Below are positions 11,142 to 12,828 of a stretch of DNA of 12,828 nucleotides, piece by piece. Position 1 is the first letter of the stretch. Every line of letters starts with the position of its first letter. The notes under the pieces were generated by a model. It made no database searches. It saw nothing but the letters and a program-made list of their open reading frames with translations, and was not told the origin of the DNA. A program made the position numbers and the translations under genes. This stretch comes from Candidatus Sumerlaeota bacterium. GTDB lineage: Bacteria; Sumerlaeota; Sumerlaeia; JAFGJS01. The stretch spans positions 1 through 12,828 of the forward strand of contig JAFGJS010000022.1 of assembly GCA_016928995.1 (NCBI GenBank). The letters are read 5' to 3'.

Positions 11142-12828
11142 CTACTGGTTTTCGTATTCCCGCAGATCGACGATGATTGGACCATTTCCGGAGTGTTTGG
11201 TGTTATCGAGTTTCCAGATCGCTTCGGCGTATTTGCCGTAGCGGGAGCGATAGGATTCCATAGGGAACGGGCGGCGCTTGGGCATGAGTTTGGCCACGGG
11301 CGGCCGCCAGCGCGTGGGATAGCGTTGAGCGGCATCATTCGTACTGCGGGCATCTTCTCCGCTGCGGCCTGCATCGTACTGACGGGATTCTGCCGTCAGC
11401 TTAGGCTCAATGCCATGCGAGACAACGGCCGAGGGCAGGATGCCCTCAGTACGATTCTTCGCGTCCAGCGCGGCGGTCGATGAGGTTTGGCCGGTGATGG
11501 CCAGCACGATGTCGGCGATGTCGAGGCGGCCGTCGTTATTTACGTCGAGCGATGCGGTAGTGCTGACAGCGCCTGCTTGAAGCGAGTAAGAGGTCAACAT
11601 CGCAACGGCGGTCGTGGGCAGCTCGATGGCTTGCAGCTCCGCGATCCACTCTTCCGGCCATTCCGCGAGCCAGGGGGAGCCGGTCAGCGAATCCGTGGTC
11701 GGCCGGCCCAGGATGTAGCCGCGCATCGCGGCGATCCGGTCGCTTGGTGTGGTTTCATACGGCCCGATGTCGAAATCCAGTCCATCGCCCGTCGAGCCTG
11801 CGCCTAACCCTTCGCCATCCTGTGGTCGCGCATTCCCGATGAAATCCACTGTCATACCCGCGCTTGTTCCACCATCAATTCCTGGTGAACCCGGCAGCAA
11901 CCGAAAATCCAACGCCCAAGGATTGGAAAAAAGCGGTGTCGCCGTAGAATTCGTGTCATCGCCGTGCGTCGAGCCTTCGATGATACAAAATGTCGGCGTT
12001 GTAGAACCAATAATTTGCGCATCATCCCAGCCAGCCGTATTGCCCCACATGATATTATCTATGATCTCTCCCTGAAAACCAAACATGCCGCCTGCATACA
12101 TCGAAGCATGGTTAAATGCTACAACATTATGCATTATCGGCCCATCGCAATTATAAATCCCACCGCCATAACTATTATATCCGCCCAAATTATTGAAGCA
12201 GATGATGTTGTTAAAAACTGGAACATCAGATGAGTTTATACCAGGCCCCATTTGATTGAGCATGACAAAATTGCCGGATATTCTTGCAGGAGTGTTAAAG
12301 TAATCATCAATAGTCCCGATTCCTGAATAAGAATTTTCAATCACAATATTTCCTTCGACAATCCCATAAGAGTTCCCGCCAATACCTGAACGACAATACA
12401 TAATTAAATTATGATGTAAATTAAACGCGCAATTATCGATCCCATAACCCCTAGCGTCCCCTCTTCCCCGTATCAGGTTATATCCAATATCGCCTACGCA
12501 AGAATATAAGGAACTAGCAGATCCAAAAGACATGGAACCTCCGGGAGGCAAAACAATGTTATCTCGAATAGTATTATATGCCAAATTTCCCGCTCTCCAA
12601 GCCGCGAGAGCATCATGGCCGCTATTCTCGCGGATGATGCAATATTCCACATAAGCGTCAGTAAAATTGCCCAGAATCCCCGCGCCCCAGTATTCGATGA
12701 TTGTTTCATACATTAAAATAAACTGAACCGGCCTCCCCAAACCATTGCGCAAGGTGAAGCCGCTGAGCACGCAGGTTGTGCCTTCATCGCCCCGGAAAGT
12801 GACGACCGGCAGCAGCCCCTGGCCATCG
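11142..12828 (-). CDS. Secreted right-handed parallel beta-helix protein with dockerin-like module and repeat-derived tail (5' partial)
   Basis: The frame is open to the window edge (first full codon at 12827-12825), so the start lies outside; a GTG at 12770 is internal, in the conserved VLSGFTLRNG strand. About 12,770-11,950 encodes stacked turns with recurrent N-x-I/V and G-I/G-G patterns (HHNLIMY, VEGNIVIEN, ISGNFVMLN, VFNNIICFNN, MHNVVAFN, IDNIMWGN), typical of pectate-lyase-like beta-helices. It closes with the common end DFRLLPGSPGIDGG...DIGPYE. A helix with ILGRPT and a calcium-type loop DVNNDGRLDIAD (11546-11511) form a single dockerin-like module. The following tail (stop at 11144-11142) is basic and partly encoded by a palindromic repeat at 11338-11456. 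No catalytic site was identified; it may be a polysaccharide-binding or degrading, or adhesive, surface protein. The helix part is visibly more AT-rich than the rest of the window. Confidence 0.82.
   Translation of the reverse strand, partial: DGQGLLPVVTFRGDEGTTCVLSGFTLRNGLGRPVQFILMYETIIEYWGAGILGNFTDAYVEYCIIRENSGHDALAAWRAGNLAYNTIRDNIVLPPGGSMSFGSASSLYSCVGDIGYNLIRGRGDARGYGIDNCAFNLHHNLIMYCRSGIGGNSYGIVEGNIVIENSYSGIGTIDDYFNTPARISGNFVMLNQMGPGINSSDVPVFNNIICFNNLGGYNSYGGGIYNCDGPIMHNVVAFNHASMYAGGMFGFQGEIIDNIMWGNTAGWDDAQIIGSTTPTFCIIEGSTHGDDTNSTATPLFSNPWALDFRLLPGSPGIDGGTSAGMTVDFIGNARPQDGEGLGAGSTGDGLDFDIGPYETTPSDRIAAMRGYILGRPTTDSLTGSPWLAEWPEEWIAELQAIELPTTAVAMLTSYSLQAGAVSTTASLDVNNDGRLDIADIVLAITGQTSSTAALDAKNRTEGILPSAVVSHGIEPKLTAESRQYDAGRSGEDARSTNDAAQRYPTRWRPPVAKLMPKRRPFPMESYRSRYGKYAEAIWKLDNTKHSGNGPIIVDLREYENQ
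11338..11456. repeat. REP-like palindromic element inside the beta-helix coding region
   Basis: CGTACTGCGGGCATC (11340-11354) and GATGCCCTCAGTACG (11439-11453) are inverted repeats matching at 14 of 15 positions. A third copy of ATCGTACTG starts at 11373. Inside are the hairpins CTGACGG-N7-CCGTCAG (11379-11399) and GAGGGCA-GGA-TGCCCTC (11431-11447). The element lies wholly within the open frame of the beta-helix gene, downstream of its dockerin-like loop, and is read through without a stop. Confidence 0.7.

Follow-up and report, generated by a model that had tools for sequence, protein, structure and literature searches.

An in-frame cluster of REP-like palindromes in the variable linker of a predicted secreted protein family from Candidatus Sumerlaeota

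A stretch of 12,828 nucleotides from a Candidatus Sumerlaeota genome (contig JAFGJS010000022.1; hereafter the window) carries at positions 11338-11456 three REP-like palindromic units, clustered in the manner of a BIME, that belong to a family tagged with CGTACTG. The cluster lies in frame in a hypervariable linker that separates the dockerin-like region of a beta-helix-like predicted secreted protein from its conserved C-terminal tail; it was probably inserted there once, tolerated, remodelled and spread among related genes. The preliminary description had taken the element for the C-terminal tail itself, which misplaced it, as it sits in the linker in front of the tail.

The cluster is defined by its inverted repeats, a hairpin model and its fold; as DNA it is unstranded, and its predicted translation, NRTEGILPSAVVSHGIEPKLTAESRQYDAGRSGEDARST, is read from the minus strand. 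Its units start at 11339 (plus strand), 11374 (plus strand) and 11454 (minus strand), each consisting of TCGTACTG running into a hairpin. Model R1 recovered unit 1 (TCGTACTGAGGGCATCCTGCCCTCGG; 11429-11454, minus) at 44.9 bits (E 3.3e-9), unit 2 (TCGTACTGACGGGATTCTGCCGTCAG; 11374-11399, plus) at 39.8 bits (E 1.1e-7) and unit 3 (TCGTACTGCGGGCATCTTCTCCGCTG; 11339-11364, plus) at 38.7 bits (E 2.4e-7). The 7-bp stem of unit 2 is perfect and its bases differ from the family on both stem sides; that of unit 3 is partly decayed. The near-matching ends and two perfect 7-bp hairpins of the preliminary description were borne out: the outer ends form an inverted repeat with 15 of 16 bases in agreement (11339-11354 versus 11439-11454, direct reading), and the hairpins at 11379-11385/11393-11399 and 11431-11437/11441-11447 pair without a mismatch. 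A longer, 28-nt inverted repeat in the element is 82% complementary. The 119 nt fold at -32.2 kcal/mol versus -18.5 kcal/mol in shuffles (z -5.6), with none of 200 shuffles as good.

The units have the tag-plus-palindrome arrangement of REPs: in them, TCGTACTG runs into a 9-bp stem that shares the CTG of the tag and is closed by a 3-nt loop. Across 11 aligned units, 94% of stem cells are paired, two-sided stem changes number 10 cells versus 2.6 in shuffles (also well above slid controls), and the stem covariation score is 0.327 versus 0.099, none of 500 shuffles being equally high. The tag is CGTACTG in all aligned units, which show CGTA in the place of the terminal tetranucleotide of the GTAG or CGTC REP superfamilies, and Rfam gave no match for the window element.

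That the element is dispersed, as had been proposed, was confirmed in its own genome. A first similarity search returned partial copies, and a covariance-model search gave eight strong units spread over four loci, namely C63 (two), C137 (two), C62 (one) and C64 (three, the window element), together with a decayed unit of 25.5 bits at a fifth locus, C156; the model was built from 11 units that include most of those in the genome, and the scores partly reflect this inclusion. A pattern search allowing up to three mismatches gave nine matches, and the reversed pattern, run as a control, gave none. Inverted pairs of the BIME type are found at C63:96-147 and C137:30334-30389, in apparently intergenic DNA near contig ends, and the assembly may lack further CGTACTG copies. 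Two of the five loci are apparently intergenic and three lie in linkers of paralogues, at a copy number far below that of REPs in general, which usually exceed 100 copies per genome and are mostly intergenic.

A search of 38 other genomes of the class, allowing at most one mismatch, gave no copy of the family. Exact matches are present in the Planctomycetota metagenome-assembled genome (MAG) MohnsGC08_bin187 (G061; L069-L082), where the model detects at least 76 units, many of them in inverted pairs 29-30 nt apart; this distribution points either to transfer or to a very old family. The idea that the insert is ordinary protein sequence, resembling a palindrome by chance, has the open frame alone in its favor and is refuted by the dispersed copies; given also the blank reversed-pattern control, the stability of the fold and the abundance of units in an unrelated MAG, its probability is negligible.

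The host gene is a partial open reading frame (ORF) on the minus strand (11142-12827) with 561 codons inside the window, its 5' end cut off by the contig end. The missing N-terminus, with the signal-like MRFLLTTSLALLIAIPGIRAFA, is on contig C33, whose sequence overlaps the end of the window. The product encoded in the window runs from a choice-of-anchor Q region through a dockerin-like region and the linker to the conserved tail. The choice-of-anchor Q domain (11751-11912, minus) matches NCBIfam choice_anch_Q (NF041518; E 7.3e-7, 29.3 bits, cut-off 25), while the dockerin-like region with DVNNDGRLDIADI (11505-11603, minus) matches Pfam Dockerin_1 weakly (E 0.045, below the gathering score); Pfam searches of the ORF and of the tail gave no match above the cut-off. 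A single-sequence AF2 model has a mean pLDDT of 43.6, with values below 50 in the linker and most of the dockerin-like region alike. As described previously, the frame passes through 11338-11456 without a stop. Two of the six frames of the insert are open, compared with 1.8 expected (~0.30 per frame); since this agrees with the chance expectation, openness is not in itself evidence of selection, and we rejected it as such.

Five paralogues in the same genome, C64 (window), C62, C157, C50 and C156, all comprise the beta-helix, a dockerin-like region and the tail. No other part of the protein is as well conserved as the tail, 61 residues from QRYPTRWRPPVAK to GPIIVDLREYENQ in the window (11145-11327, minus), which has 72-90% identity among the five and, with a dN/dS of 0.13-0.27, is under purifying selection in them. 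Its consensus reads YPTRWRPPVAKPMPxRRPFPxESYRxRYGKYAEAMWKLDNTxHPGNGPIIVDLREYEN, and it occupies the position expected of an anchoring or sorting signal. A profile search found exactly five tail copies in the own genome, whereas 39 other genomes of the phylum yielded no copy. Because no copy occurs elsewhere in the genome or in those 39, the tail is a lineage-specific module of this paralogous family, and for the same absence from the phylum we compared paralogues in place of orthologues. Weak translated matches of a linker-plus-tail query in other genomes (E >=0.003) drew no support from the tail profile search and were discarded.

The linker, by contrast with the tail, is the replaceable part of the protein. 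Measured up to the RW of the tail, it ranges from ~29 residues in C157 to ~84 in C156, and its identity between paralogues is 19-38%, except in the close pair C50/C157 (67%). REP-derived DNA is present in the linkers of three of the five paralogues, with three units in C64, one in C62 and one decayed unit in C156, whose linker also contains the tandem repeat STDVMDSSMDIMDSSMDGAD. The latter (L061 ~1030-1160) encodes MDSSMDI/MDSSMDG, so that palindromic and tandem repeats alike have been gained by one linker. In C50 and C157 the linker is short and serine-rich, with no recognizable REP, and the tail follows it. An inverted pair of GTAG-type REPs lies outside the C157 paralogue, at G000:C157:20848-20924, 54 nt past its stop codon; the position just after a stop codon is the usual one for REPs.

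Of the two interpretations offered previously, that of a dispersed repeat tolerated as a linker is supported by this variability and by the REP-derived sequence in three of five linkers. For the C64 protein there is no such support for the other, an insertion that lengthened the product and joined a new basic tail to it. The alignment proposed at that time, here made with paralogues, gave C50 and C157 as proteins with the tail and no recognizable REP, and none of the five ends after the dockerin-like loop. Because C50 and C157 have the tail without a recognizable REP, the insert appears not to have joined the C64 protein to a new tail, the REP preceding a tail that is common to all five paralogues. 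A version of the fusion can be framed in which a dockerin-ending ancestor lost its stop on REP insertion and gained the tail from downstream DNA, C50 and C157 having lost the REP later. Such a history would fit the more distant paralogue C156b (39% identity), which has no tail and which, used as an outgroup, roots the tree on the side of C62/C156 (support 0.88), allowing a REP-bearing ancestor; the outgroup branch is very long (1.16), however, and the rooting weak. A REP-bearing common ancestor of all five paralogues is thus possible. Given the short linkers of C50 and C157, with no recognizable REP, and a tail that is conserved more strongly than the rest of the protein, unlike spacer DNA translated only recently, we regard the fusion as quite improbable, and give equally little credence to the REP pair being the junction at which a dockerin-ending ancestor acquired its C-terminal module. 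If this reading were true, a mobile palindrome would have created a domain architecture, which amplification then turned into a gene family and further repeat turnover kept variable.

Comparison of the three REP-bearing linkers suggests one old insertion that was afterwards reshaped and spread through duplication and gene conversion, because C62 and C156 share with C64 the REP family, the linker, the frame and the right boundary codon. The first unit is read in the identical frame in C62 (NRTVGFQPTA), C156 (PRTVGFQRAA) and C64 (NRTEGILPSA). The right-hand tag CAGTACG starts 19 nt before a conserved CAACGC in C62 and C64, and C156 has a decayed CAGCGCG at the corresponding offset. The common frame and right-hand boundary favor a single ancestral insertion; the left-hand boundary of C64 differs from that of C62/C156 by ~40 nt, a difference that two insertions explain as well as one insertion with a later deletion. 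Separate insertions into this permissive linker, one in C64 and the other in the lineage of C62/C156, would account for the differences in left boundary, unit number and stem sequences, and for the overall tree, in which C64 groups with the REP-free C50/C157. We consider this doubtful, if the most credible of the alternatives: the frame and the right-hand boundary base are identical, a coincidence estimated at a few per cent given the linker length, and exchange by gene conversion immediately upstream, between C62 and C64, offers a simple route of sharing.

Regional trees bear on the last point. For alignment columns 440-540 (support 1.00) and for the tail (0.96), the partner of C62 in the trees is C156; for columns 540-660, immediately upstream of the linker, it is C64 (0.94-0.98), and there C64-C62 synonymous divergence falls to 0.29-0.41 versus 0.72-0.84 further upstream. 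The simple reading of these conflicting trees is that paralogues underwent gene conversion, which could have carried the REP-bearing linker among them. Under the single-insertion history, one REP pair would have entered the linker of an ancestral gene, been tolerated owing to the little sequence constraint there, and come to encode a hydrophilic spacer in a stretch of protein that accepts changes of length and sequence. The comparisons point to no protein function of the insert other than spacing. Later remodelling would have removed internal sequence from C62, added tandem repeats to C156 and given C64 its three units, with the REP-bearing linker passing between copies by duplication and gene conversion.

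The repeat might instead have been kept for a role in DNA or RNA, such as mRNA 3' stability, supercoiling or transposase binding, with translation incidental. Strong hairpins do survive although synonymous sites in the gene body are near saturation (pS ~0.5-0.8), and REPs often lie near gene ends (PMC3733652); the decayed C156 unit, the broken stem of window unit 3 and the absence of units from C50 and C157 nevertheless make such a role unlikely.

The preliminary description cited repeat-to-protein conversion for some bacterial palindromic elements, with Rickettsia as the example, and knew of none for this sequence, which was fair for the sequence itself; translated intragenic REPs have, however, been published outside Rickettsia (PMC3733652). 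In that catalogue, short GTAG- and CGTC-tagged palindromes lie wholly inside ORFs, often as inverted dimers or groups, with copies near coding-region ends among them; the clusters of Thauera and Rickettsia conorii account for 43-82 residues of protein, and recB of two Xanthomonas species carries different REPs at about one common site (PMC3733652). The window element resembles these in being a cluster of tagged palindromes within an ORF, and differs in its CGTA tag and in the confinement of all clear intragenic copies to one family of secreted-protein paralogues. With Rickettsia palindromic elements (RPEs) it shares, in general description, a palindromic repeat in frame inside a protein gene. 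RPEs occur in many unrelated proteins, whereas searches of the own genome gave clear intragenic copies of the CGTACTG family in one paralogous family.

Tagged hairpin units in inverted pairs also recall the REPs and BIMEs mobilized by RAYT (TnpA-REP) transposases; unlike RAYT-linked REPs, the CGTACTG family has a low copy number in its own assembly and no RAYT gene was found flanked by it. A CGTACTG unit flanks a Y1_Tnp gene, as in a REPtron, at 0 of 9 loci in the own genome, whose assembly is fragmented, and at 0 of 5 in the Planctomycetota MAG; the cognate RAYT is possibly missing from the fragmented assembly. Two RAYT genes of the own genome are flanked by other REP families, of GTAG type (C156:36967) and CGTGG type (C56:3005). 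The first, a RAYT-like Y1_Tnp gene at G000:C156:36555-37360 (L026), forms a REPtron with GTAG-tagged REPs of the GTAGCGCCGGCGTCTCGCCGGC family, which has ~36 units in the own genome within two mismatches. The second, at G000:C56:2700-3650 (L027), has hairpins on both sides, CGTGGCATGGGCATCTTGCCCATG and CGTGGTACGGGCGTCCCGCCCGTG, of a separate family with a stem similar to the CGTACTG one; L027 gives only a weak match of 18 bits, assigned to a CGTGG family.

Events of this kind are known already, and the present case extends them to a further lineage and protein family; the few translated REP insertions on record are thereby joined by one for which paralogues can be clearly compared. The CGTACTG tag, common to a Planctomycetota MAG and with no transposase partner found, is a small lead on REP diversity. 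Lastly, REP-bearing and REP-free paralogues within one genome separate the conserved part of the protein, the tail, from the replaceable part, the linker.
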